The position numbers were made by a program, and so were the translations under genes. From a virus: a stretch of DNA of 35,916 nucleotides. The number at the start of each line of letters is the position of its first letter. The first letter of the stretch is position 1. The notes beneath the pieces were generated by a model. The model saw only the letters and a list, made by a program, of their open reading frames with translations, ran no database searches and had not been told where the DNA came from. The stretch lies in the IMG/VR virus record IMGVR_UViG_3300036985_005157, positions 1-35,916 of that record. One strand, 5' to 3'. This document shows positions 1 to 12,000 of the stretch, in pieces.

Positions 1-129
1 ATAGATTCTTCTCATAGAGAAACGCCTCTAATAACTCCAATATTGGGGTTATTTTTTTTATCCATATCCAGATCCAACTCCAGATCCAGATCCAGATCCA
101 ACTCCAGATCCAGATCCAGATCCATACCC
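1..129. repeat. Terminal overlap, left copy
   Basis: The first 129 bases match the last 129 (35788-35916) with no gap and a single difference, C at 127 against T at 35914. This shows that the contig closes on itself, so the real genome is about 35787 bp, circular or circularly permuted. It could also be a true short terminal repeat, but it ends inside the hexanucleotide array, where an assembler would stall, so an assembly overlap is the simpler reading. Confidence 0.9.
30..59 (+). terminator. Rho-independent terminator after the holin-like gene (left copy)
   Basis: An 11-bp inverted repeat (30-40 pairing with 43-53, one G-T pair) is followed by a run of eight T on the plus strand. On the closed circle it ends rightward transcripts leaving the holin-like gene at 35515-35769. 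On the minus strand the T-run precedes the stem, so it is probably not an efficient terminator for the leftward operon that ends at 58. Those transcripts may therefore run into the stem and the next region. Confidence 0.75.
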
Positions 130-408
130 AGATCCAGATCCAGATCCATATCCAGATCCAGATCCATATCCATATCCAGATCCAGATCCAGATCCATATC
201 CATATCCAGATTCATATCCATATCCAGATCCAACTCCAGATCCAGATCCAGAAATATCTCCAGGCCCAGATCCAACTCCAGATCCAGATCCAGATCCAGA
301 AATATCTCCAGGCCCAGATCCAGATCCAGATCCAGATCCAGAAATATCTCCAGGCCCAGATCCAAGTCCAAATCCAAGCTTAGATTCAGGACTATCTATC
401 TCTCCCAT
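58..408 (-). CDS. Gly-Ser-Tyr repeat protein encoded by a hexanucleotide array
   Basis: A 116-aa protein with a short unique head (MGEIDSPESKLGFG) and then an almost pure G-x repeat in which x is Ser, Tyr, Val or Pro, including three GPGDIS blocks. The start has a good Shine-Dalgarno (GAGG, seven bases before ATG) and overlaps the end of the upstream DUF6948 gene by 13 nt, as expected for the last gene of the leftward operon. Three facts favour this frame over the alternative Leu-Asp frame on the same strand and the Arg-Ser frame on the other: the RBS, the near-invariant Gly codon, and the one base that differs between the two contig ends, which is synonymous here (GGG/GGA). No signal peptide or known domain. 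The function is unknown; it may be a flexible, low-complexity protein. Copy number may be unreliable in the assembly. Confidence 0.65.
   Translation of the reverse strand: MGEIDSPESKLGFGLGSGPGDISGSGSGSGSGPGDISGSGSGSGVGSGPGDISGSGSGVGSGYGYESGYGYGSGSGSGYGYGSGSGYGSGSGSGYGSGSGSGVGSGSGSGVGSGYG
66..370. repeat. Hexanucleotide array (about 300 bp) with 27 GATC sites
   Basis: The array is built from the plus-strand unit CCAGAT with variants CCATAT, CCAACT and a longer block containing AAATATCTCCAGGCC that occurs three times. I count 27 GATC tetranucleotides between 71 and 366, against about one expected by chance. It encodes the Gly-Ser repeat protein on the minus strand. The contig junction lies in it. 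Since the phage encodes a Dam-like methyltransferase, the cluster could be a methylation-dependent element, for example a packaging site; that part is inference. Confidence 0.9.
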
Positions 409-797
409 ATGGCTACCTCATTTAAACTATTTAAAGCTTTTTCGGTCATGTCTATAATTTCTATGGCTTCAGTTAGTTTTATTCTGTCTACTGCAACAGG
501 GAAATTACATTTGTCTGGCTTAGATGTGCCGTCAACTGCCAATTGGCTTAGGCTTGCAGCTCCGTCCCAATACCAAACTCTTCTGGCATTCCTCATAACA
601 ACTTCTTTGCCATTTTCCGACTCAACTACGCCGTAAAATACGCCAGCTGAGTATGTTCTAACTATTTTGTATTCAGATGGTTTGTAGGTTTTTTTAGCTT
701 CATATTTCCCATTATTATAAGCTAATTCAAGAATTTCTTGCAACGAAGCTTCGTTATTAACCACTTGAGAAATCATTCTTGTAAAATCCATTTTCAT
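396..797 (-). CDS. DUF6948 domain-containing protein
   Basis: A 133-aa protein recognised as the phage DUF6948 family from the conserved middle (AGVFYGVVESENGKEV, ARRVWYWDGAASLSQLA) and the C-terminal part (FPVAVDRIKLTEAIEII). The family is common in phages and prophages and has no established biochemical role. No membrane segment or catalytic motif is evident. The start codon overlaps the stop of the small membrane protein gene upstream (ATGA, 794-797), and its own end overlaps the repeat-protein gene, so it is translated within a coupled operon. A second in-frame ATG two codons later also has acceptable spacing, so the start is uncertain by two residues. Confidence 0.85.
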   Translation of the reverse strand: MKMDFTRMISQVVNNEASLQEILELAYNNGKYEAKKTYKPSEYKIVRTYSAGVFYGVVESENGKEVVMRNARRVWYWDGAASLSQLAVDGTSKPDKCNFPVAVDRIKLTEAIEIIDMTEKALNSLNEVAIWER

Positions 798-901
798 TTC
801 CTTTTCCTAGTTACCATTAATATTACGACAATAATAAACACCCAAACACAAATATATCCAATTACCAGAAGGCTTTTAAGCATCATCCAAGATTCAATCA
901 C
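794..901 (-). CDS. 35-aa single-pass membrane protein, GTG start
   Basis: A small gene in the gap between two larger ones. GTG at 901 overlaps the upstream stop (GTGA) and has GAGG seven bases before it; the stop overlaps the next start (ATGA). The product is a short head (VIESWMMLKS), a hydrophobic stretch of about 20 residues (residues 10-31, rich in Val, Ile and Leu) and a basic tail (TRKRK), as for a protein inserted in the inner membrane with the tail in the cytoplasm. The exact fit to both neighbours is the main evidence for coding. The function is unknown. An internal ATG pair at codons 6-7 could serve as an alternative start. Confidence 0.65.
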   Translation of the reverse strand: MIESWMMLKSLLVIGYICVWVFIIVVILMVTRKRK

Positions 902-1629
902 TCTTCTACCTCGTATTCCCCAGTAAGTTTCATGCTTTTAATGTATCTATGTTTAGCTGTTTCAAAGTTACCAGCGATAGCTTCTTCTTCTGTTGTATGC
1001 ATAACCTCAGCAATGAGATCGCCTGCATATACATTTACCCATCTCTCAACAGTCTTTTTAATCATGGATTTAGGTCTGGTAAGTGACTCATTTAATGCCC
1101 TCACTTGCGCTTCTAACTTTTCAAGATTAATTAATGCGCCTTTTATTCTAACCTCTATTTTTTCAATATCTGCAAGAATTAAATTTATCTTGTCAGCAGT
1201 TGACAAGGGTGCTGCCTCCCAAAAATTAACTACACTAAGATCTAACTTTATCCGACATACACTACATGGCCGGCCTTTATTAAATTTAAATCGGCATGAT
1301 CCACACTCATTTTTTGGTATTTTTTTCCCATCCATTCCACTGAAAGGGTCTACAGTGAGCGGCATCTTTGGATCTCGATGTGGTAGTACGCTTGAGTGAG
1401 TTTTTGGAGAAGGATTAATTATAACATCCAATATTGTCTCTCCACATGCAGAAAAATGCCTGCCGTTTTTCATGCAAACAAATGTTAAATAGCTATTATT
1501 CGTCTCATATACAACGGAGTATTTGTAATAATCATTAGAGTCTGGCCTTTTTTTTAAAAGTACTATTTTATAACCATTTCTTGTTATAAGATCCTTAATA
1601 TTACATTCTCCTATATCTAAATCATTCAT
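898..1629 (-). CDS. Zinc-ribbon-like phage protein of unknown function
   Basis: A 243-aa protein. Two CxxC pairs (Cys109/Cys112 and Cys122/Cys125) could hold a zinc ion. Residues about 145-182 are helical and heptad-like, so probably a coiled coil. The last 50 residues (WVNVY, HTTEEEA, ending TGEYEVEE) resemble a short C-terminal module that recurs in phage hypothetical proteins with otherwise different N-termini. No enzymatic motif is seen. It starts inside the end of the HTH gene (overlap 8 nt) and its stop overlaps the GTG of the small membrane protein, so it belongs to the leftward operon. A role in binding nucleic acid or protein is possible but not shown. Confidence 0.75.
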   Translation of the reverse strand: MNDLDIGECNIKDLITRNGYKIVLLKKRPDSNDYYKYSVVYETNNSYLTFVCMKNGRHFSACGETILDVIINPSPKTHSSVLPHRDPKMPLTVDPFSGMDGKKIPKNECGSCRFKFNKGRPCSVCRIKLDLSVVNFWEAAPLSTADKINLILADIEKIEVRIKGALINLEKLEAQVRALNESLTRPKSMIKKTVERWVNVYAGDLIAEVMHTTEEEAIAGNFETAKHRYIKSMKLTGEYEVEE

Positions 1630-1798
1630 TTGGATTCTCCCAATATTTTTTTATAGCCTCATAAATATTCTCATTTTTTACAGGCATACCACGGATATAT
1701 CTGTGTAAACTAGAAGTACTTATTTTTAGTGCTTTAGAAAGCTGCGTGATAGTATGACTGATGCGGAGGTCTTCAAGCATCTCCTGAGCAGTACTCAT
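1622..1798 (-). CDS. Small helix-turn-helix protein, 58 aa
   Basis: A short ORF with a strong ribosome binding site (GGAGGG just before ATG at 1798). Residues 17-38 read as a classical HTH: first helix ITQLSKALKI, turn, recognition helix TSSLHRYIRG. The C-terminal helix contains YEAIKKYW. It overlaps both neighbours by a few codons (26 nt upstream, 8 nt downstream), typical of this operon. The likely role is a transcription regulator of the Cro or small-repressor kind. It lies in the leftward arm, while another small HTH gene (4118-4354) heads the rightward arm, so the pair may control the shared divergent operator at 4045-4060. That link is inferred, not shown. Confidence 0.7.
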   Translation of the reverse strand: MSTAQEMLEDLRISHTITQLSKALKISTSSLHRYIRGMPVKNENIYEAIKKYWENPNE

Positions 1799-1937
1799 GC
1801 ACCCTCCGTGGTAAGACAGTTACTAGATGCGTCCCATCATCTCGTAATTTAGAGATGCTTACAACATCATTACCTGCTGTGGTTACTGTTAATATTCCTT
1901 GCGATAACTGCGCCGGCGTTAGATAAATATAAATCAT
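1773..1937 (-). CDS. Small phage protein of unknown function, 54 aa
   Basis: I place the start at 1937 because AGGGG lies five bases before that ATG, while the in-frame ATG at 1979 has no Shine-Dalgarno. The product begins MIYIYLTPAQLSQG and looks like a compact beta-rich domain with a basic segment (LPRRVHEY). No catalytic motif, signal peptide or membrane helix. It overlaps the following HTH gene by 26 nt and follows the upstream gene after 16 nt. I do not recognise a family with a known role. Confidence 0.6.
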   Translation of the reverse strand: MIYIYLTPAQLSQGILTVTTAGNDVVSISKLRDDGTHLVTVLPRRVHEYCSGDA

Positions 1938-1953
1938 ATATTCCCCTAGCGTT

Positions 1954-2211
1954 TTATCCCGACGAGTCACACTGCCCATTGTAATTAATAAAACTGCCGA
2001 CTAATGTCGCATTTACTACTTGCCCACACCCAAAAATACCCGCATCTTTTAAAAGATTAATATCTTCTTGAGTTACTTCCCGTGTGGCATCCACTATTTT
2101 ATATTTGCCATTCCATGTGGAATAACATCGATTAGAACTTTTGATTGTTGCGGGTTCGTCCACTTCTAATTCAATATGGTTGTCTTTTGCAATTACATTC
2201 AGATTACCCAT
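1954..2211 (-). CDS. Small phage protein of unknown function, 85 aa
   Basis: ATG at 2211 is preceded by GAGGTGAT and overlaps the end of the upstream gene by 8 nt. The product starts with a beta-strand-like segment (NVIAKDNHIELEVDEPATI), contains three scattered cysteines, and ends with polar residues. No recognisable motif or membrane segment. Its place in a continuous overlapping operon and its good RBS support that it is real; the role is unknown. Confidence 0.6.
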   Translation of the reverse strand: MGNLNVIAKDNHIELEVDEPATIKSSNRCYSTWNGKYKIVDATREVTQEDINLLKDAGIFGCGQVVNATLVGSFINYNGQCDSSG

Positions 2212-2422
2212 TTATCACCTCACTAGACACTACTTTTTTCTTTGGCATGCCTTTGTCCTTGCGAGTTCTGCGAGGCACCGCAGGAGCAGTGGGGAGCACT
2301 GGGATAGCATTTACGCACGCGCTTAAAACTTCAATTATACTGAGAGCGTCTACTACTTCCATATCCATAATTGTAACATGATGATTTTTCACAAATTCAA
2401 ATACTTGTCTTACTGTTGTCAT
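2204..2422 (-). CDS. Small phage protein with basic tail, 72 aa
   Basis: A helical N-terminal half (TTVRQVFEFVKNHHVT, then VVDALSIIEVLSACV), a Pro/Ala linker and a strongly basic tail (PRRTRKDKGMPKKK) that could contact DNA or RNA. The start overlaps the stop of the preceding gene (ATGA, 2419-2422), indicating translational coupling. I do not recognise a family, and no function is assigned. Confidence 0.6.
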   Translation of the reverse strand: MTTVRQVFEFVKNHHVTIMDMEVVDALSIIEVLSACVNAIPVLPTAPAVPRRTRKDKGMPKKKVVSSEVING

Positions 2423-2622
2423 TTTATAGTCTCCATGTTTTTAACTTTCCAACATTTTGGAAATGTGAATCCGATTGTGGCGATACTGCCTTTTTTCATT
2501 GGATGAAGTTCAATATATAGCTGCAGACCCTCTTGCAACTTCTTCCTCATCTCTTCTATTTCTTTGTTGGAATAGAGAATGTTATTCTCTAATTCGATGG
2601 TTGTGATGTAATTCTGTTTCAT
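2419..2622 (-). CDS. Small phage protein of unknown function, 67 aa
   Basis: Starts with MKQNYITTIELE, has an acidic-basic helix (NKEIEEMRKKLQEGLQLYIE) and ends with a short beta-like stretch. It overlaps the recombination ATPase gene upstream (4 nt) and the next gene downstream (4 nt). Its position directly after the ATPase suggests co-expression with the recombination module. No known motif; the function is unknown. Confidence 0.6.
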   Translation of the reverse strand: MKQNYITTIELENNILYSNKEIEEMRKKLQEGLQLYIELHPMKKGSIATIGFTFPKCWKVKNMETIK

Positions 2623-3326
2623 AGTCTCATCTTCTCCAAGATTTTCTCATCAAGAGGTTCACTTGGTAATAAGTTAAAACGGTTCTTTGCTAGGTATGCT
2701 GGCGCTTCTATGGTGCGGAGTATACGTTTCCCCGTTGTTATCGCTCGAAGCCTCTCCTCGTCTCCTCTGTCAGTTTTAACGATGGTCTCTATTTGAGCAA
2801 ACAAAACTGCATCCATTTTAGCGCAAATTAAATTGACGCTCTTAGGATGTAACTTGATCGTGTATTTGTCGTAGGCGTCCTGATCCGGTGCGTTGAAAGT
2901 CCTAATTGTTTCATGTGCGAGTATGATAATGTTTTTATTCGCACCAAGAATATGATCCACAATTCCAAGGAATTTACACCATGCTTCTTGCGCCATCGTA
3001 TACGCTTTACCATAACCCGCTTGCTCCATGCTTTTCCATTGATTCGAGTCGCAGATGTGCTTGTGCAGCATAGCTTCTAGATAATCAATAGAGTCAATAC
3101 AAACTGTCTTAAACTCACTCTTGAAAAATTCTCTCAGGTGTTCTTCAAACTCTGGCCAGGTCTTTACTATCGGAGTTTTATTCACATTTGGTAGCTGACG
3201 CAAACCATTTTCAATGTCAATAAATACAACATCCCTACATTTACTAGCTAGAGTTGATTTACCAATGCCTCCGGCTCCATAAATCAGAACAGCAACGCCC
3301 GTTTCGATCTTCTCTTGTAGCCTCAT
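2619..3326 (-). CDS. Sak4-like RecA-fold ATPase (phage recombination)
   Basis: A 235-aa P-loop ATPase. Walker A is GAGGIGKS (residues 17-24) after a short N-terminal strand, and a Walker B-like VCIDSID is at 75-81, followed by conserved helices and a sensor-like strand IIILAHE. Size, motif spacing and the neighbouring SSB-like gene match the AAA_24/Sak4 group of phage proteins related to the RecA/Rad51 core. Family knowledge: Sak4 proteins promote single-strand annealing with help from a cognate SSB. The likely role is phage genome recombination and repair in the cytoplasm. It lies 9 nt after the DUF669 gene in the leftward operon. A generic nucleotide-binding role cannot be excluded. Confidence 0.85.
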   Translation of the reverse strand: MRLQEKIETGVAVLIYGAGGIGKSTLASKCRDVVFIDIENGLRQLPNVNKTPIVKTWPEFEEHLREFFKSEFKTVCIDSIDYLEAMLHKHICDSNQWKSMEQAGYGKAYTMAQEAWCKFLGIVDHILGANKNIIILAHETIRTFNAPDQDAYDKYTIKLHPKSVNLICAKMDAVLFAQIETIVKTDRGDEERLRAITTGKRILRTIEAPAYLAKNRFNLLPSEPLDEKILEKMRL

Positions 3327-3335
3327 AGCATCCTC

Positions 3336-3767
3336 TTAAAACGGTACATCGTTCGCTGCTGCTGCATCATTAGAGTGATTACAATATGGTTTAAATTCAA
3401 CCATTTTAGCGTTCATCTTATTATTTGTATCTTTTATGTGTACAATTTTAGCACAAAATATGCTGTCAATTAGTACAGACGCTTCCACTATTTCTTGCAC
3501 GTTAATTGCTAGACAAAACTTCTTCAAGTCAACTAACCCACGAGTTGCTACTTGCTCATTTGTGTTTTGGATGTTGAAATAGTGCCAGTGTTTTCTATTG
3601 CCACCTTCGATCTTACAAGTTAATTCAATGAAATTTCCAGTGCCTTTTTTACTCCCTCTTACTTCTGCATTTTCTACTATAAAATTATGATAGCCTTCTG
3701 GAATTAATTCGAAACTGTTTTCTGATTCCATTTCACGAGATATCTGATTAATATTAAATAATGCCAT
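3336..3767 (-). CDS. DUF669 protein, SSB-like partner of the recombinase
   Basis: A 143-aa protein with the DUF669 pattern: an early LIPEGYHNFIVENAEV strand, KKGTGNFIELTCKIEGG, then FNIQNTNEQV and a C-terminal tail ending in acidic/aromatic DVPF, which resembles the tail tip of bacterial single-stranded-DNA-binding proteins. Family knowledge: DUF669 proteins sit beside Sak4/Erf-type genes and are thought to act as SSBs. Here it is directly upstream of the Sak4-like gene, so coordinated single-strand DNA binding and annealing is the probable role. The first 20 residues and the OB-like beta content fit. DNA binding itself is not visible in the sequence. Confidence 0.8.
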   Translation of the reverse strand: MALFNINQISREMESENSFELIPEGYHNFIVENAEVRGSKKGTGNFIELTCKIEGGNRKHWHYFNIQNTNEQVATRGLVDLKKFCLAINVQEIVEASVLIDSIFCAKIVHIKDTNNKMNAKMVEFKPYCNHSNDAAAANDVPF

Positions 3768-3769
3768 GT

Positions 3770-3919
3770 TTAAATACTCCTATTAAAATTATAGCCCATC
3801 TCCGTAGCCGCCTCCGGCTCCATTGCCGAAGTCGCTGTTTCCGAAGCCGTAGCCGCCTCCGTCTCCATCTCCGTAACTCTTCCTTCAAAAATATCTTTAA
3901 TTACAGTTTTAATATCCAT
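3770..3919 (-). CDS. Small ORF, first of the leftward operon, with an overlapping Gly-rich frame
   Basis: ATG at 3919 has GGAG five bases before it and opens a 49-aa frame: MDIKTVIKDIFEGR, then an Ala/Glu/Thr-rich low-complexity part, ending in NFNRSI just before the SSB gene. The low-complexity part is odd. Read one base back, the same DNA gives G-D-G/G-Y-G/G-F-G repeats from 3884 to 3789, closely resembling the Gly-rich protein at 58-408. Codon third positions vary as expected for the Gly frame. The real product may therefore be the 12-residue head joined to the Gly-rich frame by a -1 shift, or the assembly may carry an indel. The function is unknown. Confidence 0.5.
   Translation of the reverse strand: MDIKTVIKDIFEGRVTEMETEAATASETATSAMEPEAATEMGYNFNRSI
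3789..3884 (-). other. Gly-rich frame overlapping the 49-aa ORF
   Basis: This frame lies between TGA (3885-3887) and TAA (3789-3791) and reads SYGDGDGGGYGFG, then NSDFGNGAGGGYGDGL. It has no ATG of its own. The pattern of GGN codons with mixed third bases (A, C, G) is what a true glycine-rich coding sequence gives, and the composition matches the 58-408 protein. Expression would need a -1 frameshift near codon 12 of the upstream frame, a non-standard start, or correction of a sequencing indel. Confidence 0.4.
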
Positions 3920-3939
3920 AAATTCTCCAAATATATAAG

Positions 3940-3972
3940 TTAAAAAAGGTGGAAATAAATTAAAAAAAGTGG
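3940..3972. repeat. Two near-identical A-tract repeats in the leftward leader
   Basis: TTAAAAAAGGTGG at 3940-3952 and TTAAAAAAAGTGG at 3960-3972 differ by one base and start 20 bp apart, about two helical turns. They lie in the roughly 120-nt leader between the leftward promoter and the first leftward gene. They could be paired protein-binding sites or elements of the leader RNA; nothing decides between these. Confidence 0.4.
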
Positions 3973-4029
3973 TGTGTGTGCTATAAAACCTCGCCGTAAT
4001 TGAGTGTTAAAATTAAATATTTGATCGGC

Positions 4030-4058
4030 TTGACAATAACTGTTGGATAGTACACTAT
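4030..4058 (+). promoter_or_regulatory. Rightward early promoter
   Basis: -35 TTGACA (4030-4035, consensus), a 17-bp spacer and a -10 CACTAT (4053-4058). It is about 60 bp before the Cro/YdaS-like gene at 4118. The -10 lies in the palindrome 4045-4060, so a protein bound there would block it. Confidence 0.6.
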
Positions 4059-4060
4059 CC
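4045..4060. promoter_or_regulatory. Palindromic operator between divergent promoters
   Basis: GGATAGT and ACTATCC form perfect 7-bp arms around AC. The -10 elements of both the rightward (4053-4058) and leftward (4047-4052) promoters fall inside it, so one bound dimer could control both transcripts. Candidate ligands are the HTH proteins at 4118-4354 and 1622-1798. Confidence 0.65.
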
Positions 4061-4075
4061 GTGGGTAAAAATCAA
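4047..4075 (-). promoter_or_regulatory. Leftward early promoter
   Basis: On the minus strand, -35 TTGATT (4070-4075), a 17-bp spacer and -10 TACTAT (4047-4052). It would start the leftward operon around 4040. It occupies the same DNA as the rightward promoter, so RNA polymerase could bind only one at a time. Confidence 0.55.
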
Positions 4076-4117
4076 TTGACTGACTGAATTATTTTATTTT
4101 CTCATTGAGGAGAAACA

Positions 4118-4354
4118 ATGTTTCCACTGAAGGAAATTAAGGCGCTGCAAGCACTATGTGGCAGTCCTGCAGAGTTTTGCAAGCGTATTGGCGTGTCTGT
4201 CCCTGCCTACTGGCACTGGATTAATAGAGAGTACATCCCCTCTAAACACTGGAAGCGGATACAATCCATCCATGTGGGGATTTTAACCGATGATATGCTC
4301 CAAAAAATGGAAACACAGCACATTTTACGCAAAAATCGAAGGGAGCACACATGA
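4118..4354 (+). CDS. Cro/YdaS-like helix-turn-helix regulator
   Basis: A 78-aa protein. Residues about 15-45 form an HTH of the Cro/YdaS type (SPAEFCKRIGVSVPAYWHW), where the second helix would read the DNA, followed by a helix with KHWKRIQ and a polar basic tail. GAGGAG precedes ATG by five bases. It is the first gene of the rightward operon, about 60 bp from the operator palindrome, and overlaps the primase gene by 4 nt (ATGA). By position it is the natural candidate for autoregulation and for switching off the leftward operon. Direct operator binding is inferred. Confidence 0.8.
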   Translation: MFPLKEIKALQALCGSPAEFCKRIGVSVPAYWHWINREYIPSKHWKRIQSIHVGILTDDMLQKMETQHILRKNRREHT

Positions 4355-6525
4355 TCTCTCTTGATGATTATCTGCAGCCTTTGCGCGAAATCGGTGTCTC
4401 CATATTCCCAGTCCATAGCGTTACAGAACATGGTTTCTGTACCTGTGGTGATCCAGAATGCATCCCAATGGGTAAACACCCTGCCTGTAAAAATGGCGTC
4501 TCTGATGCGTCCCCTGATTACAAAATACCCTCATCTAAAAATTATGGAATACAATGTGGGGTAAAACTAGCAGTATTAGATGTTGATCCAAGAAATGGTG
4601 GGAATGAATCGCTTGAGCGGCTTATTCGAATACATGGAGAACTACCATTAACGTGGGGAGTTGATACGGGTGGTGGCGGTTATCACTATTATTTTAAGGG
4701 AATAGAAGGGATTAAATCTAAACTACTAGCGCCTGGTTTAGACTTTCAAGGGACTGGGAAGTATGTTGTAGGCCCTGGCTCTAAACATAAATCAGGTAAA
4801 TTATACGAGTGGTCTGAAATAAATAACCCCTCAATGGGCTCATTAGCATCTCTGCCACAATGGATAATTGATGCGTGTTCTATTGCATCTGAAGTAGTTA
4901 TTTTAGACTCTATTGATAAGATCTCTAAAGAAGAATTTGAAACAATAATTAAAAATCTGCAATTAATATCTCCAGACTGTAACTACGAGAAGTGGCTTGG
5001 AATAGGGATGGGACTTCACTCTACTGGTTGGGGCAAACTCGCATTTGACGCTTGGGATGTCTGGAGTGCTAAATCTGCTAAATATCCGGGCACTGCAATG
5101 TTAACCAGGAAATGGTTGGGGTTTAAATTCAGGGCAAAAGATCCATCCGGCCGTGGTGCTTACTCGTATAAAATAATAGAAAAATTAGCTATCGATGCAA
5201 TGGATTTGTCTATTGTTAACCTTCTTGTCGTTAACAATGAAAAAAAAGAAATGCCTGTAAATAATCCAGACAGGCTCGAACCAACAGGATTAATATTATC
5301 GTTAGCAGAGTGGATTTATGATAATGCGCCGAGACAATACTGGGAGTGGGCAGTTGCCTCAGCTTTTGCCATCGTTAGTGGTGTTGCTCAAGGAGTTTAT
5401 CTTACGCCTATCGATACTCCTGTAACACTAAATCAGATTGTTTTAGGGAAATCCGCACAAGGAAAAGATCACTATTTGTCAGCAATTGAAACCGTATTAC
5501 GTTCTGTTGATAGTAGATTAATGATGAATGAGCCAGCGTCTAGCAACGGGTTACGAGAAACATTATACTGTTTTAATTCAAAAGTTTGGTGCATTGATGA
5601 AGTGCAGGATGTTTTTGCAAAACTCGTTGGAAGCAATAACGTCCATATACAAGGGATATTAAAAGATATTAAAGAGATATTCGGAGCCAAGAGAACACTC
5701 CTAGGTAGGGCGTCAAAGGGCATGATTCCAGTAGATATAGAGCTACCAACTATGGGACTTTTTGGGTTTGGAACTCCCGCGGGCATGGTAAAGCTCATGG
5801 AGGATACAAATATTAGTGGTGGATTAATAAGCAGACTTATACAGTGGCCACTAGTTAAGTCTGTTGATATACGCTACTTAAACAAAAAACCATGCCCTGA
5901 ATATATCATCGAGGCACTTCGCTTAATATTTAAGCAAGGTCTTACTCTGAATGAAACTATGGATGAATATCGTGCGCGACGTGCTGCAATATCATCGGAT
6001 AAAAAGCAAGTGCCTGACCATGTGACAGCAGTTTGCAGAAATAAAAAAGTAAAATTTTCTGATGATGCTAAAAAATTGTTTATGCAATTCGCAAAAGAGA
6101 AAAATGACTACTTCGTAGCACACGATGATGAGGATGATGCTTCTATAGTAGACCGAGCACCGAACATTGCGATGCGGTTTGCCGCCTTGGCTGCAATTGG
6201 GAATGGCACGGAGTCAATATCAATGGCCGATATAAAACTGGGTATAGAAATAACTGAATTAACCGTCGGTAGAGCAAAACAAGCCGTTATCGATTCTCAT
6301 GATACAAAAGTAGCTATAGGAATACTAGCGCGGCTTAGCAAGCCTGGAATCCATTCTAGGATAGTCCTTGGCAATAGTATGCGAGTGAATTTCAAAATTT
6401 TTGATGATGAAGTCCGAAACTTGGTAAGCCAAGGCCGCGTGCAGCTCACTTGGAAGGATGAACCCCTTCATGATCTCTCCAAAATCCCAAAATCTGCTGT
6501 CCTAAAATTAGCCGAATTTGCATAA
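4351..6525 (+). CDS. Primase-polymerase/helicase replication protein
   Basis: A 724-aa multidomain replication protein. The N-terminal prim-pol domain has the acidic pair of its active site in LDVDP (76-80), GGGYHYYF (108-115) and DFQGTGKYVVGPGS (131-144). A short cysteine-rich insert (CTCGDPEC, 30-37) precedes it. Residues about 190-275 look like the PriCT-2 primase C-terminal domain. The second half is a P-loop NTPase of the DUF3987 helicase kind, with GKSAQGKD near 366-374 and a Walker B WCIDEVQD near 413-420, followed by GLISRLIQWPL. The probable role is priming and unwinding at the phage origin, which lies just downstream (6526-6945). It is translationally coupled to the HTH gene. No separate replicative polymerase was recognised, so the host polymerase is probably used. 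Confidence 0.85.
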   Translation: MISLDDYLQPLREIGVSIFPVHSVTEHGFCTCGDPECIPMGKHPACKNGVSDASPDYKIPSSKNYGIQCGVKLAVLDVDPRNGGNESLERLIRIHGELPLTWGVDTGGGGYHYYFKGIEGIKSKLLAPGLDFQGTGKYVVGPGSKHKSGKLYEWSEINNPSMGSLASLPQWIIDACSIASEVVILDSIDKISKEEFETIIKNLQLISPDCNYEKWLGIGMGLHSTGWGKLAFDAWDVWSAKSAKYPGTAMLTRKWLGFKFRAKDPSGRGAYSYKIIEKLAIDAMDLSIVNLLVVNNEKKEMPVNNPDRLEPTGLILSLAEWIYDNAPRQYWEWAVASAFAIVSGVAQGVYLTPIDTPVTLNQIVLGKSAQGKDHYLSAIETVLRSVDSRLMMNEPASSNGLRETLYCFNSKVWCIDEVQDVFAKLVGSNNVHIQGILKDIKEIFGAKRTLLGRASKGMIPVDIELPTMGLFGFGTPAGMVKLMEDTNISGGLISRLIQWPLVKSVDIRYLNKKPCPEYIIEALRLIFKQGLTLNETMDEYRARRAAISSDKKQVPDHVTAVCRNKKVKFSDDAKKLFMQFAKEKNDYFVAHDDEDDASIVDRAPNIAMRFAALAAIGNGTESISMADIKLGIEITELTVGRAKQAVIDSHDTKVAIGILARLSKPGIHSRIVLGNSMRVNFKIFDDEVRNLVSQGRVQLTWKDEPLHDLSKIPKSAVLKLAEFA

Positions 6526-6945
6526 AACCATCCCACCGTTAGCGTCTGCAAAACTCTGTTAGCAAGTGCTAACGACGTAAGCTTTTAATTTAACTAACAT
6601 AATAGAAAAAAACGAGACCGTTAGCGCGTTAGCGTACCCCTCTAGCACACGGGGGAGGGGAGGGAGAGAAAAAAGGAGAGACCCGCTCTCTGAGTTGGGT
6701 TCTGCTAATTTGCTAATTATTAGTATATTATATATAAAATATTATATTATATATATATATACGTAAGAGAACTCTCAAAATACAAACGTTAGCAAAACGT
6801 TAGCAAAACCGTCAGCATTGCTAATTTTTGCAAAAATGCCAAATTATTTTCTTGTTTGTAATCAAAAGCACTAAAGTTTTCATTGCACCTGTCGATACGT
6901 CTTGTAAGGAACAAATGGGAGCTAACAGTCACCAAGGAGGACGGT
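6526..6945. repeat. Non-coding block with GTTAGC/GCTAAC iterons: candidate replication origin
   Basis: No credible gene lies in these 420 bp. GTTAGC occurs at 6538, 6558, 6620, 6628, 6788 and 6799 (plus strand), the inverted GCTAAC at 6568 and 6921, and related GCTAAT or GTCAGC at 6704, 6712, 6811 and 6820. Two copies (6788, 6799) are 11 bp apart, one helical turn. The repeats flank an AT-only tract at 6715-6761 and a purine-rich G-run tract at 6651-6680. Iterons plus an easily melted tract directly after the primase-helicase gene is the usual design of a phage or plasmid origin. Binding of the replication protein is inferred. Confidence 0.6.
6715..6761. other. AT-only tract (candidate DNA unwinding element)
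   Basis: About 45 consecutive bases with almost no G or C, including alternating TA steps, lying between two groups of iterons. Such tracts melt easily and are a standard part of origins. Confidence 0.55.
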
Positions 6946-7371
6946 ATGTGGAAAAAGTTTTTAGTCATGTCTATATCAATGGTAGTAGTTGGATGCGGAT
7001 CTGTTGAAGACGCTATTTCTAATCAAAAAACTACCGCGGCATCAGACAAACCAGCCGAGTGCAGTGGTAATGGTAGGACTGATATACCAACACAGCCTGC
7101 TCTCGCTGATAACTGGAAAATTCTTAGCAATACATGGCCAACTTCAGTATGGGCAGACATGAGAGATAAGTGCATTCAAAGCTTTGTTGATTTTGAGATC
7201 AAATGCGCGGTGTCGTTTCCTGAGGTCATTAAAACCGATTCTTGTGGATGCTGGGCTATGGGTATGACTAGCTATACAGTCTATCCTGAAAATACCACTG
7301 TCGCAGTTAGTGAAGCATGGGCATATTGGTGCGGATACTCGGCAGCAAAAAAATTTAGAGGTGCAAAATGA
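6946..7371 (+). CDS. Small secreted lipoprotein
   Basis: ATG at 6946 is preceded by GGAGG with five-base spacing, better than the upstream in-frame starts. The 141-aa product has a lipoprotein signal: a basic start (MWKKFL), a hydrophobic core and lipobox VVGC, so Cys17 would be lipidated. The mature part is Cys- and Trp-rich (SVWADMRDKC, DSCGCWAM, WAYWCGY), suggesting disulphides in the periplasm. It is next to the candidate origin among non-structural genes, a position typical of early genes. Known parallels for phage-encoded lipoproteins include superinfection exclusion and receptor blocking (for example T5 Llp); sequence relation to those is not evident, so the function is inferred only. 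Confidence 0.75.
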   Translation: MWKKFLVMSISMVVVGCGSVEDAISNQKTTAASDKPAECSGNGRTDIPTQPALADNWKILSNTWPTSVWADMRDKCIQSFVDFEIKCAVSFPEVIKTDSCGCWAMGMTSYTVYPENTTVAVSEAWAYWCGYSAAKKFRGAK

Positions 7372-7571
7372 AAATTCAATTAGAAATGAAATCCCAATAT
7401 GGTCAACAACGCTATTATGCTATTGATGTTAGTCAGTCTATTCCATTAGCGTATCTAACGGGAACTAAAACGTTAACAAAAGCTCATCTTGATGCACTTA
7501 CTGCGCTCGGATTTGAATTAGTTGTGGTAAAAGTAGAAGGTAGAACCATAACCGGATATACCCTCGACTAA
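7368..7571 (+). CDS. Small phage protein of unknown function, 67 aa
   Basis: GAGGTG precedes ATG by four bases, and ATG overlaps the lipoprotein stop (ATGA), so the two are coupled. The product begins MKIQLEMKSQYGQQRYYAID and has a helix TKTLTKAHLDALTALGFE. It resembles small phage proteins seen near replication or nuclease genes, none with a known function. Its end overlaps the end of the minus-strand nuclease gene by 4 nt, so the two transcripts converge here. Confidence 0.7.
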   Translation: MKIQLEMKSQYGQQRYYAIDVSQSIPLAYLTGTKTLTKAHLDALTALGFELVVVKVEGRTITGYTLD

Positions 7572-8047
7572 ATTACCGCCACGTCATCACACCATGCCGT
7601 AATCTCGCCACGCTCTATCCACGCCTGCAACTTCCCAACATTCACTACTATCGCCACTCGTGCTCCTAGCCTCGTTAAATCACTCAATACTGCGTACTGA
7701 TCTGAACTCACAGTTCCACCTGGTGCTTTGCATTCAATTGCTAACATTCGACCCTCATGACACCCCAGGATATCTGGGAGGCCACGCATTTCCCCTTGCA
7801 CCATCACACTCGCGCCATGCGTGTGCACTATCTTTCCCGCGTTATCGATCCTACGATGCCAAATATCTAACACATTCAATAATTGCTTAGTCGCTTTTAA
7901 AATATCAGCCTCTTTTAATCCAGTCCTTAACCTATAAATAGAAGGCAGTTGCTTAGAATTACCCTGCAGTAATTTGCTTTTATTTATTCTCTTATAAATG
8001 TTTAACTGCTCACTTAATGTACTACACTCAATGATTTTTAATGCCAT
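7568..8047 (-). CDS. VRR-NUC domain nuclease (PD-(D/E)xK fold)
   Basis: The start at 8047 is chosen because GAGG lies seven bases before ATG; a longer TTG version to 8101 lacks a Shine-Dalgarno. In this 159-aa protein Pro91-Asp92, Glu105-x-Lys107 and Gln118 give the VRR-NUC nuclease pattern, with a preceding helix (ADILKATKQLLNVLDIWHRR) and GLPD. The N-terminal 45 residues are basic and not part of the core. Family knowledge: VRR-NUC proteins cut branched or flapped DNA, and phage versions are proposed junction resolvases. It is the only minus-strand gene between 4118 and 34365 and has its own promoter (8076-8105). The likely role is resolving replication or recombination intermediates before packaging. 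Confidence 0.8.
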   Translation of the reverse strand: MALKIIECSTLSEQLNIYKRINKSKLLQGNSKQLPSIYRLRTGLKEADILKATKQLLNVLDIWHRRIDNAGKIVHTHGASVMVQGEMRGLPDILGCHEGRMLAIECKAPGGTVSSDQYAVLSDLTRLGARVAIVVNVGKLQAWIERGEITAWCDDVAVI

Positions 8048-8653: not shown

Positions 8654-9133
8654 GTGGGTTTATTGCCAGAAGGCTACGTCTTTGGTAGGCCAACTAAATA
8701 CAAAAAAGAATATTGCAAGCAGCTAATAGAGCACATGAGTCAAGGTTATTCCTTTAAATCATTTGCTGCACGTGTACCGTGTAATGAAGATACTGTTGCA
8801 GAATGGGCAAAAGTACATCAGGACTTTTCCGATGCTAAAACCGTAGGCAAGGCTCTAGAACGGTTCCTTTGGGAGAAAATACATCTCAAATGTTCTATGA
8901 CTGGCGAAGGAAACATGACTGGTATTATCTGGGCACAAAAAAACAAATGGCCTGATGAATTTAAAGAAAAGAATGAAACTATTGTGAAACAAGAGCTAGC
9001 TGTGTCCGGTGACTTTAAATCAATTGTAGCAATGATGACACCTGAACAAATGTATCAATTATCTGTGGCATTAGAACAAAAAACACAAGTATTAGAGGCA
9101 ACACATGAAGTTCGAGACAGTAAAGATAAATGA
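8654..9133 (+). CDS. terS: Terminase small subunit
   Basis: A GTG-start ORF of 159 aa immediately after the preceding stop, without a clear Shine-Dalgarno, so it probably uses coupling. The N-terminal half is the HTH of phage small terminases: GRPTKYKKEYCKQLIEHM, then SFKSFAARVPCNEDTVAEW, which recognises DNA. A helical oligomerisation part follows (ALERFLWEKIHLKC, GIIWAQKNKWPDEFKEK) and a polar C-terminal tail. It binds the packaging site and activates the large subunit. It overlaps the ParB-like gene by 29 nt. Confidence 0.75.
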   Translation: MGLLPEGYVFGRPTKYKKEYCKQLIEHMSQGYSFKSFAARVPCNEDTVAEWAKVHQDFSDAKTVGKALERFLWEKIHLKCSMTGEGNMTGIIWAQKNKWPDEFKEKNETIVKQELAVSGDFKSIVAMMTPEQMYQLSVALEQKTQVLEATHEVRDSKDK

Positions 9134-9626
9134 CCTTACACCATATGTGAACAACGCTCGCAAACACAGTGATAAGCAGATTAAGCAGATCCAAAAGTCT
9201 ATTAAAGAATTTGGCTTTCTTAACCCTGTTATCATCGATGCTACAAATGGCATAATAGCGGGGCATGGTAGAGTTGCTGCTGCTATCAAACTCAAGATTA
9301 AAGAAGTGCCCTGTATCCGTGCCGAACACCTTACAGAAGTACAAAAGCAGGCGTACATCCTAGCGGATAACAAGCTGGCTCTAAATTCTGAATGGGATGA
9401 CACGATCTTGCAAAGCGAACTCCAGGCATTAAAAGAGCTGCAGTTTGATTTTGAGACTATCGGTTTCGATGAACTGCCAGGATTTACTCCCTCACTTCCC
9501 GATGAAAACAAAAGCAATGAGTCTCCAGAAGAAAAACTAGTGCTAATTGTTACGTTAGAGAGCCAAGAGGACAAGCAATTATTATTCGATGAGCTGAGAG
9601 ACCGCGGGTACAAGGTGAAGGTATGA
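9105..9626 (+). CDS. ParB-like (ParB/Srx) domain protein
   Basis: A 173-aa protein with the ParB/sulfiredoxin N-terminal fold: LTPYVNNARKHSDKQIKQIQ, FGFLNPVIID, then GIIAGHGRVAAA, where GHGR (53-56) is the conserved loop, followed by ADNKLAL. The C-terminal 50 residues are acidic and unlike ParB partition proteins. In many phages this domain is fused to a DNA methyltransferase; here the methyltransferase is the next gene with a 4-nt overlap, so the pair probably acts together. No partition parS or ParA is seen. GAGG six bases before ATG supports the start. Confidence 0.8.
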   Translation: MKFETVKINDLTPYVNNARKHSDKQIKQIQKSIKEFGFLNPVIIDATNGIIAGHGRVAAAIKLKIKEVPCIRAEHLTEVQKQAYILADNKLALNSEWDDTILQSELQALKELQFDFETIGFDELPGFTPSLPDENKSNESPEEKLVLIVTLESQEDKQLLFDELRDRGYKVKV

Positions 9627-10666
9627 GTGACTACGGCATTCCTTACATGGGTAGTAAAGCAGGTATAGCACCAAGTATTGCAATGAATTTTCCTTCGGCA
9701 GAGCACTTCTATGATTTGTTTGGCGGCGGATTTTCTATTAGTCATTACATGATTGAGAAGAAAGCAAATAAGTTTAAGTATTTTCATTACAATGAGATTA
9801 AAAAAGATGTAACAGAGTTAGTCAAAAAGGCTATCAATGGTGAGTTTAATTATGATAAGTTCAAACCAAAATGGGTCTCACGAGAGGACTTTTTTAGATT
9901 AAAAGACACTGATGCTTATATTAGATGCTTGTGGAGTTTTGGTAATAATCAGAAGAGCTATTTATTTGGTAAGGATATTGAAGACTATAAAAAATCAATG
10001 CATATGGCGATAGTATTCGGTGAAATTGATGATATTGCTTATTCTGTTTTAGAATTTAAAAAATGGCCGGAAAATGTAAAAACTATCACGCAAAGACGTT
10101 TTTATCTGAGACAAAAATTAGAGTGGTACAATCTGAATAAGAAAATACCAAAGATGTTATATCAATATTTATCTGAAAAACAGTTGAAAGAAATGGGAAT
10201 AAAAGACAACGTAAGACAGTTGCAGCAGTTGGAGCAGTTGGAGCGGTTGGAGCAGTTGGAGCGGTTGGAGCAGTTGGAGCGGTTGCAGCAGTTGCAGCAG
10301 TTGGAGCAGTTGCAGCAGTTGGAGCGGTTGCAGCAGTTGGAGCAGTTGCAGCAGTTGGAGCAGTTGCAGCAGTTGCAGCGACTTACTATTACCTGCGTAG
10401 ATTATCGCCAGGTTGAAATCCTACCTGATTCTGTTGTTTATTGTGATATTCCTTATGCTGGTACCTCTGATTACGGCACATTTTCACACAAAGAATTTTT
10501 CGACTGGGCAGCTACTCGCGCATTCCCTGTATATATTTCAGAGTACAATGTGCCTGATCCAAGATTTCAGCTTGTTTATTCTATTGATAAAAGGGTTTTA
10601 CTAACGACAACTGGGGATAAAAATAAGGTTAAATCTGAAAAACTATACTGGAATGGCGTCAAGTGA
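9623..10666 (+). CDS. DNA adenine methyltransferase (D12/Dam class) with repeat insertion
   Basis: A 347-aa enzyme. An N-terminal IPYMGSK motif, SAM-binding DLFGGG (31-36), an NEI turn and catalytic-loop motif DIPY (275-278, a variant of DPPY) identify a D12-class N6-adenine methyltransferase. Members commonly methylate GATC; the specificity here is not readable. Residues 200-253 are an inserted minisatellite-coded block of 18 LxQ/LxR triplets, between the recognition part and the catalytic loop. Its start overlaps the ParB-like stop (ATGA) and its stop overlaps the terminase large-subunit start (GTGA). Methylation would protect phage DNA or mark packaging sites. Confidence 0.9.
   Translation: MSDYGIPYMGSKAGIAPSIAMNFPSAEHFYDLFGGGFSISHYMIEKKANKFKYFHYNEIKKDVTELVKKAINGEFNYDKFKPKWVSREDFFRLKDTDAYIRCLWSFGNNQKSYLFGKDIEDYKKSMHMAIVFGEIDDIAYSVLEFKKWPENVKTITQRRFYLRQKLEWYNLNKKIPKMLYQYLSEKQLKEMGIKDNVRQLQQLEQLERLEQLERLEQLERLQQLQQLEQLQQLERLQQLEQLQQLEQLQQLQRLTITCVDYRQVEILPDSVVYCDIPYAGTSDYGTFSHKEFFDWAATRAFPVYISEYNVPDPRFQLVYSIDKRVLLTTTGDKNKVKSEKLYWNGVK
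10220..10381 (+). repeat. 9-nt minisatellite in the methyltransferase, 18 units
   Basis: TTG, then GAG or CAG, then CAG or CGG (CGA in the last unit) is repeated 18 times without interruption. The period is a multiple of three, so gain or loss of units by slippage keeps the reading frame. It codes for Leu-Glu/Gln-Gln/Arg triplets. Confidence 0.95.
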
Positions 10667-12000
10667 TTTCTGATCGCTTGTTCTCCCTCACAGCCTTTGG
10701 ACGATTATCTGCTACTCTATTCCAGCAGCAACAAGACTTCATACGCGATAAAGCCAAGATGAAGGTTGCCTGCTGTACGCGCCGTGCTGGCAAGTCACAC
10801 GTTGCAGCTATTAAATTACTGCAGGCTGCTTCGCGTGTACCTAACTCTACTGCTCTCTATTTATCTCTGACTCAGCGTAGCGCCAAAGGCATCATGTGGA
10901 GAAAATTAAAGCAGATAGTTACACAGTATAAGCTGCCTGTTGAGTTTAAAGAGTCTGAGTTAATAGCAGTACTACCGAATAACTCTAGAATAGTTTTGTA
11001 TGGAGCTGATAAAGAAAACCTTATGGATACGCTGCTTGGTGATGCATATTGCACAGTAGTTATCGATGAGGCTCAGTCTTTTGGCTCTCACCTCCAGGAT
11101 ATGATCGATGAAGTTTTAGAGCCAGCCACGTTGGATTACGCAGGCGATATATCGCTAATTGGTACACCAGGGCCTACTTGTAACGGTATTTTTTACGAGG
11201 CTGCCGTTGGCGCTGCAGAGTATTATTCTAGGCACAAATGGAGTCTGCTAGACAATTTCCACTTACATAATGCAGCAGGCTGGCTCTCTGATCTTAAAAC
11301 ACGCAGGGAGTGGAGCGATGATAATCCAACGTATCGTCGTCAGTATCTAGGGGAGTGGGTAGTCGATCTATCTGCTTTAGTGTACAAGTTTAATATTAAT
11401 AAAAATGTTTACCATGAGCTTCCCAATGTTGATTTTAACTATGTAATCGGCCTTGATTATGGGTGGAATGACGCCACGGCTTTTTGTGTGTTGGCTTATT
11501 CAGAAAAGCACCCGAATGCTTATGTGTTGGACTCATATGGCAGGTCAGAAATGACACCTTCGATGATAGCCACAGAGCTGAAAAAGCTAATGGTTAAATA
11601 TAACCCTGAGCGAATCATTGCGGATACAGGTGGTCTAGGTAGAAGTATCACTGAGGAAATGAGATTACGTTATGATTTACCAATTATTGCAGCAGAAAAG
11701 ACTGAAAAGATGACTGCAATTGATATGCTAAACTGTGACTTTATGGACAGAAGATTGTTTATTAACGCCAAATGCAAAGCATTACACTCACAACTAGAGG
11801 CGTTAACGTGGGATGATAAGCATAAAGAAGATCCAAGCCTACCAAATGATTTATGTGATAGTTTTTTATATTCAACAAGGTATTCTCGCCACTACTGGGG
11901 CAAGATACCGACAATTATTAACCCTCTTGAAACAATGGAACAGGAGATATTAGACTATGCAAGCGCTAAACCAAAATACTTTGACGATATTGGATATTAA
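10663..12000 (+). CDS. terL: Terminase large subunit
   Basis: A 445-aa ATPase/nuclease of the DNA-packaging motor. Walker A CTRRAGKS (38-45), Walker B VVIDEAQ (about 131-137), then the coupling motif region SLIGTPGP. The C-terminal RNase H-like nuclease shows GLDYGWND (about 262-269), IIADTGG (about 317-323) and DLCDSFLYS (near 397). GTG start overlapping the methyltransferase stop by 4 nt. It cuts concatemeric DNA and pumps it into the prohead docked on the portal. The family type (pac or cos) cannot be fixed without a tree; the circularly permuted contig favours headful packaging. Confidence 0.92.
   Translation: MISDRLFSLTAFGRLSATLFQQQQDFIRDKAKMKVACCTRRAGKSHVAAIKLLQAASRVPNSTALYLSLTQRSAKGIMWRKLKQIVTQYKLPVEFKESELIAVLPNNSRIVLYGADKENLMDTLLGDAYCTVVIDEAQSFGSHLQDMIDEVLEPATLDYAGDISLIGTPGPTCNGIFYEAAVGAAEYYSRHKWSLLDNFHLHNAAGWLSDLKTRREWSDDNPTYRRQYLGEWVVDLSALVYKFNINKNVYHELPNVDFNYVIGLDYGWNDATAFCVLAYSEKHPNAYVLDSYGRSEMTPSMIATELKKLMVKYNPERIIADTGGLGRSITEEMRLRYDLPIIAAEKTEKMTAIDMLNCDFMDRRLFINAKCKALHSQLEALTWDDKHKEDPSLPNDLCDSFLYSTRYSRHYWGKIPTIINPLETMEQEILDYASAKPKYFDDIGY

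Follow-up and report, generated by a model that had tools for sequence, protein, structure and literature searches.

A palindrome and promoter pair between divergent primase and Sak4 operons as a plausible variant Cro-type regulator site in a recurrent phage gene layout

The paired promoters and palindrome that lie between the replication and recombination genes of IMG/VR virus record IMGVR_UViG_3300036985_005157 plausibly constitute a Cro-type regulator site of a variant kind, set in a gene layout that recurs in other phages. In the window, by which is meant the whole stretch of 35,916 nucleotides that was analyzed, the intergenic gap between a leftward and a rightward series of genes (3920-4117) holds the promoter pair and the palindrome (Table 1). 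The two putative promoters are of the host main-sigma type and would face outward from one centre. Transcription from the rightward promoter would lead into the gene for a Cro-like protein and then that for a primase-polymerase, and transcription from the leftward promoter into the genes for a single-strand DNA-binding protein (SSB), a Sak4-like ATPase and further small proteins.

Table 1. Features of the promoter region and of the genes on either side (positions in the window)
Feature	Position	Strand	Remarks
Rightward -35, TTGACA	4030-4035	+	17-nt spacer to -10
Rightward -10, CACTAT	4053-4058	+	3/6 consensus
Leftward -35, TTGATT	4070-4075 (read 4075-4070)	-	17-nt spacer to -10
Leftward -10, TACTAT	4047-4052 (read 4052-4047)	-	4/6 consensus
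Palindrome GGATAGT-AC-ACTATCC, perfect 7-2-7, 16 bp	4045-4060	no strand	candidate single operator
Cro-like HTH protein, 78 aa, first rightward gene	4118-4354	+	GAGGAGA ribosome site; ATGA overlap with next gene
Primase-polymerase (Prim-Pol, PriCT_2, DUF3987)	4351-6525	+	
Low-complexity ORF, 49 aa, first leftward gene	3770-3919	-	no family
Single-strand DNA-binding protein (DUF669)	3336-3767	-	
Sak4-like annealing ATPase (AAA_24)	2619-3326	-	
Possible HTH protein, 58 aa, helical, eighth leftward gene	1622-1798	-	weak

Cro is usually viewed as half of a lysogeny decision. Opposite the cro gene of the window there is no CI-type repressor; the genes found there are the 49-aa ORF, SSB and Sak4. The record contains terminase, portal, major head and tail genes. 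Searches gave no match to a tyrosine integrase, an S24 repressor or a resolvase in the record, which may be a fragment since it is linear with an ORF open at its left end. The preliminary description of this DNA, made from the sequence alone, had proposed a Cro-type circuit in a phage with no recognisable CI or integrase, and this is supported. Neighbouring genes of the leftward series are at most nine bases apart or overlap by up to 26, and its first member, the 49-aa ORF, is made of GCCGCCTCC-type repeats. Elsewhere in the record, a terminator-like stem of ten pairs followed by a T run lies near the left end (30-53), and genes for a ParB-like domain protein and then a methyltransferase-like protein (9105-10666) lie directly upstream of the large terminase gene.

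The hexamers and 17-nt spacers of the preliminary description were all recovered in the sequence, as was its perfect 7-2-7 palindrome covering both -10 elements. One centre, at 4052.5, is common to the palindrome and to both the -35 and the -10 pairs. The promoters had been said to overlap almost fully, which does not hold for the -35/-10 cores (4030-4058 and 4047-4075), as these have only 12 bp in common; a large overlap would be expected for the whole RNA polymerase footprints of both promoters. The two -10 boxes abut each other and account for five of the seven arm pairs of the palindrome, leaving the outer GG/CC unexplained. The symmetry is partly a product of these mirror-image boxes, and its independent part is the placement of TTGACA and TTGATT at mirrored distances. 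If transcription starts about seven bases past each -10 box, the starts would be at about 4065 rightward and 4040 leftward, and the palindrome would be transcribed from neither promoter. Between the promoters and the leftward operon, at 3935-3972, there is a pair of 18-nt copies (ATAAGTTAAAAAAGGTGG and ATAAATTAAAAAAAGTGG) at a distance of 20 nt, which are possible leader or origin repeats.

Neither promoter appeared in the output of a stock consensus scan, because CACTAT matches only three of six positions and the leftward promoter totals eight of 12. In a ranking of 71,780 positions with a weighted matrix, the rightward promoter came 41st and the leftward 189th, the latter being the best leftward site in 3900-4118. 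A -35 at least as good as TTGATT occurs among 2.3% of the hexamers of the window, and one at least as good as TTGACA among 0.013%. The promoter-pair score of the window is not significant by itself when compared with shuffles (p = 0.164), and the window alone is therefore insufficient to prove a promoter pair.

What is unusual about the palindrome is its exact form. Taken as a generic inverted repeat (the best in the gap with any spacer of 0-10), it is no better than chance (p = 0.264), and the window as a whole has 34 perfect palindromes with arms of at least seven and spacers of 0-10, three of them with a spacer of two. The exact 7-2-7 form was present in 2.05% of 2000 shuffled gaps, and at other loci 124 such sites were found in 1.06 Mb, or about 0.02 per gap of the length of that in the window. 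Only one second site resembles the palindrome, with three mismatches, at 11945, and two or more sites turned up in 31 of 100 shuffles. Several related operators, a trait of CI/Cro switches, are not found in the window, which has the one exact site and the three-mismatch site. In IMG/VR, 41 stretches carry the exact palindrome, 17 of the sites being outside longer ORFs. The contexts of these 17, inspected by eye, showed no adjoining HTH gene and no similar locus; the 41 occurrences are discounted as evidence of conservation. The palindrome was also considered as a general feature of the layout and rejected, with no enrichment in 32 gaps including that of the window (lowest p, 0.109).

The protein encoded by the first rightward gene is predicted to have a Cro fold. 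Searched alone, the 78-aa sequence had YdaS_toxin as its best Pfam match (19.1 bits, cut-off 30), with no P22_Cro match listed, and among PDB sequences it gave unrelated matches only and no Cro. A profile was made from a nine-member alignment headed by the window protein, whose IMG/VR relatives are 17-24% identical to it. This profile, which the relatives dominate, matched Xfaso 1 Cro (1e-14), P22 Cro (6e-9), YdaS (8co2; 3e-7) and N15 Cro (0.004), and in hhalign it gave 95.5% to PY54 Cro and 91.1% to N15 Cro. The AF2 model made from the same alignment has five helices (pLDDT 79). Foldseek placed N15 Cro with operator DNA first (E = 0.18) and Xfaso 1 Cro close behind, all E-values being 0.18 and above and none below 0.001. 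In VIA, the model reached Z 8.4 to Xfaso 1 Cro over 63 residues at 2.2 Å, and HigA-type antitoxins scored about 7 to 7.7. The predicted structure is that of a small, all-helical, single-domain Cro/HTH protein of the P22/N15/Xfaso 1 type.

Because of this fold, the operators of the telomere phages were chosen for comparison; the choice was made from the protein and not from the palindrome. Exact 7-2-7 sites are present in the repressor-cro gaps of PY54 (GTATAGCTGGCTATAC) and N15 (TTATAGCTGGCTATAA). The window palindrome, which has the same 16-bp 7-2-7 symmetry as the OR3 of the telomere phages, agrees with the PY54 site at ten of 14 arm bases (five of seven arm positions) and with the N15 site at eight of 14. 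For random arms, the probability of five matches in seven to PY54 is 0.014, and of the 124 further sites of exact 7-2-7 form in the 1.06 Mb, one matched PY54 or N15 at five or more of seven. The geometry and core of the operator are supported by prediction, as is the fold. The TA-N10-TA motif described for the phiKO2 and N15 operators (PMC4997575) is absent from the window palindrome, where positions 2 and 15 are G and C. PY54 Cro binds a single 16-bp palindromic site, with specificity set by its outermost bases (PMC4488713), and phiKO2 Cro binds the 16-bp OR3 only (PMC4997575).

The reading preferred here, held with as much confidence as doubt, is that Cro governs the two operons without CI: RNA polymerases would exclude each other at the promoters, and Cro at the one shared operator would repress both operons, producing an early shut-off and not a bistable switch. 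The operons would compete because the overlapping cores would seat only one RNA polymerase at a time. As Cro accumulates, a dimer would settle on the 16-bp palindrome over both -10 boxes and shut both promoters, including that of cro itself. Replication and recombination genes would be expressed in an early burst that then shuts itself off, and with no CI there would be no lysogenic state to hold. The positions, the symmetry, the gene content and the recurrent layout are seen directly in the sequences, and from them we infer that the promoters are used, that Cro binds the palindrome and that it acts in the direction of repression. One operator lies over both -10 boxes, and therefore joint repression with feedback is predicted rather than a two-protein flip-flop. 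The preliminary description had envisaged a switch that times recombination against replication genes instead of lysogeny; the location of the site between the replication and recombination operons bears this out in part, whereas the single operator does not favour alternation. Autorepression is not given by analogy, because the PY54 and phiKO2 Cro proteins reportedly do not repress their own synthesis.

No close relative that would allow footprinting of the palindrome was found. None turned up when IMG/VR was searched with single proteins (primase, Sak4 and the 78-aa protein) or when positions 1-8000 were compared with phages by blastn. The best IMG/VR pair alignment reached 29% (L051), and genome contigs yielded ten loci, none of them close. 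The layout of a small HTH gene, a primase gene and a divergent gene for a Sak4-type ATPase does recur in named phages and in IMG/VR contigs, and the circuit that had been ascribed to one phage thus sits in a layout that is not peculiar to it. In Yersinia phage vB_YenS_P400, the Cro-like gene overlaps the primase gene and a Sak4-like gene runs leftward; Klebsiella phages VLCpiS13b and 6991 have the same layout. So does Alteromonas phage XX1924, where a TOPRIM-domain protein follows the regulator without overlap. The gaps of P400, VLCpiS13b and XX1924 contain no near-perfect 7-2-7 palindrome. Pseudoalteromonas AL has the regulator and the primase, and its first opposite gene is without a Pfam match. 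Sf11, Sa179lw, H40/1 and C7 have their primase elsewhere or in another orientation, but here too the Cro-like gene and the operon with the Sak4-like gene diverge.

Among 80 IMG/VR primase loci, 61 were readable upstream of the primase (eight had no full primase ORF and 11 were too short), and a small upstream ORF was present in 49 of these and missing from 12. Scanning of 50 upstream proteins, that of the window included, gave 23 HTH_3, 15 HTH_17, 10 YdaS and 8 P22_Cro matches, with overlap between families; the slot before the primase is therefore occupied by different HTH families. The divergent gene was AAA_24 in 22 of 26 cases scanned, counting the Sak4 gene of the window, and the other four comprised genes for an exoribonuclease, an S24 repressor and an FGE-sulfatase domain, plus one gene that matched nothing.

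Overlapping divergent promoters also recur in these gaps. At p < 0.05 they were found in 16 of 22 non-redundant relatives versus three of 27 control gaps taken from our own ORF calls in viral loci (Fisher p = 1.8e-5), or three of 18 if only controls up to 170 nt are used (Fisher 5.4e-4). The 22 relatives leave out the window and near copies (L132, L089, L062, L102, L098, L122 and L130), and pair scoring left out L059 and L113; in gaps over 220 nt, scoring was confined to the 160 nt that adjoin the HTH gene, and several left gene starts in the relatives' gaps are guesses. Three of the 22 were without an AAA_24 gene opposite in the scans (L084, L112 and L134, of which L134 was scanned for its first opposite gene only), and without these three the count is 15 of 19. 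Since any two divergent operons can be expected to have strong promoters facing both ways in the gap between them, the excess shows recurrence of the arrangement and not regulation. A leftward -10 at or next to the rightward -35, with strong scores, was seen in eight of 22 relatives and two of 27 controls; the spacing in the window differs. In four gaps (L074, L097, L101 and L100), the divergent promoters are fully nested, the leftward -10 adjoining the rightward -35 and the reverse, as TTGACA-N22-TGTCAA. The best hint of Cro operators among the relatives comes from Pseudoalteromonas phages H40/1 and C7, where TAAAC-N7-GTTTA occurs twice in the regulator gap (L043:8608-8758 and L045:8606-8748), with changed centres in one copy; any such repeated site was present in 0 and 1 of 300 shuffles.

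The chief alternative, which appears unlikely, accepts the promoters as real and divergent and takes the palindrome for chance symmetry, arising partly from the mirror-image -10 boxes, with the Cro-like protein binding elsewhere or at asymmetric repeats within the gap. The generic palindrome test, the 32 gaps without enrichment and the 41 IMG/VR stretches, in which no HTH gene was seen beside the 17 non-ORF sites, would all agree with this. It fits less well with the rarity of the exact 7-2-7 form in shuffles, with a likeness to PY54 that only one in 124 other sites equals, and with the outer GG/CC pairs that the -10 boxes do not explain. An alternating switch, in which the 78-aa protein and the 58-aa protein of the leftward operon compete for the palindrome and so time recombination against replication, is improbable. 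A small HTH protein had been proposed for each arm; the first rightward gene is well supported as such, whereas the case for 1622-1798 is weak and distal, with no evidence linking it to the palindrome. Both proteins are predicted to be helical and HTH-like, and the 58-aa protein has an HTH_3 match below the cut-off (E = 0.0033) and weakly resembles a class of 59-aa HTH proteins that other phages encode at the corresponding place of the primase operon (E = 0.00037, hhalign probability 36%). At this probability, a single family for the two was rejected. However, the gene of the 58-aa protein is the eighth of its series and lies about 2.2 kb away from the promoter; among known structures, the protein most resembles the N-terminal domain of MuB, at Z 7.9, below 8; and the gap shows no sign of two binders.

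It is distinctly improbable that the site belongs, or once belonged, to an ordinary lysogeny switch of the CI/Cro type whose CI or integrase lies outside the record or has been lost. The linear record, with an ORF left open at its left end, could accommodate such a history, which has a counterpart in locus L112 (3816-4827), where the genes for an S24-type CI and a Cro-like protein diverge and the latter immediately precedes the primase. This locus has a classic CI/Cro pair where other phages have Sak4. Against it, the recombination operon occupies the place opposite Cro, and the related records, many of those from IMG/VR being fragments, have an integrase in 0 of 26, a resolvase in 0 of 26 and an S24 repressor in one of 26, the sole case being L112. 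Phage P400, with the same layout, failed to lysogenise its host, and its authors state that they found no integrase or genetic switch (PMC9412545). The same authors regard ORF76, the Cro-like gene of P400, as a possible toxin-antitoxin component (PMC9412545), and together with the best Pfam match of the window protein, YdaS_toxin below cut-off, this would suit a protein that is mainly a YdaS-type toxin or toxin-antitoxin component and not an operon regulator. This is most improbable, considering that YdaS structures are described as Cro-type proteins in their deposition (8co2), that the position beside divergent promoters is conserved and that no partner gene was seen.

If Cro does govern replication and recombination operons without lysogeny, as in the preferred reading, this would reveal a use of Cro-like control alone, and the window site would offer a testable minimal circuit for early shut-off. 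Searches of the open-licence literature listed no paper in which Cro, without CI, governs primase and Sak4 operons. It is possible, and is put forward only tentatively, that such an early governor is widespread among phages without lysogeny genes. Its regulator would be a small HTH protein, drawn from one family or another, whose gene immediately precedes that of the primase; by acting on symmetric, overlapping promoters that also serve the Sak4 operon, it would let one site set replication start-up and recombination. If so, L112, with an S24 CI opposite a Cro-like gene, would show interconversion with the classic CI/Cro switch, CI being swapped for the recombination operon. Such circuits may be missed in the annotation of virulent phages; for P400, the authors reported no genetic switch (PMC9412545).

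Among known systems, P400, VLCpiS13b and XX1924 resemble the window in that the Cro-like gene immediately precedes a primase or TOPRIM gene, which it overlaps in P400 and VLCpiS13b, and diverges from the gene of a Sak4-type ATPase; the P400 protein is about 20% identical to that of the window. The lambda CI/Cro switch likewise has a Cro-type regulator and divergent early operons. However, the window is without CI or integrase, it has one operator where lambda has six, and its opposite gene set is SSB-Sak4. The Pr/Pc switch of pLS20, controlled by Rco, has overlapping divergent promoters, like the putative pair of the window; they differ in strength and lie under an operator (PMC4207663). Unlike the window, pLS20 is a plasmid, with conjugation genes, a second operator and looping, whereas the only second site of the window is the three-mismatch one at 11945. 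The immB regions of PY54, N15 and phiKO2 have a prophage repressor opposite cro, and their OR3 adjoins the repressor gene, unlike the arrangement in the window. Nevertheless, the window would share with them a Cro-fold protein, a 16-bp 7-2-7 operator and divergent promoters, with ATAG/CTAT in register and, as in PY54, G/C ends and a single operator.
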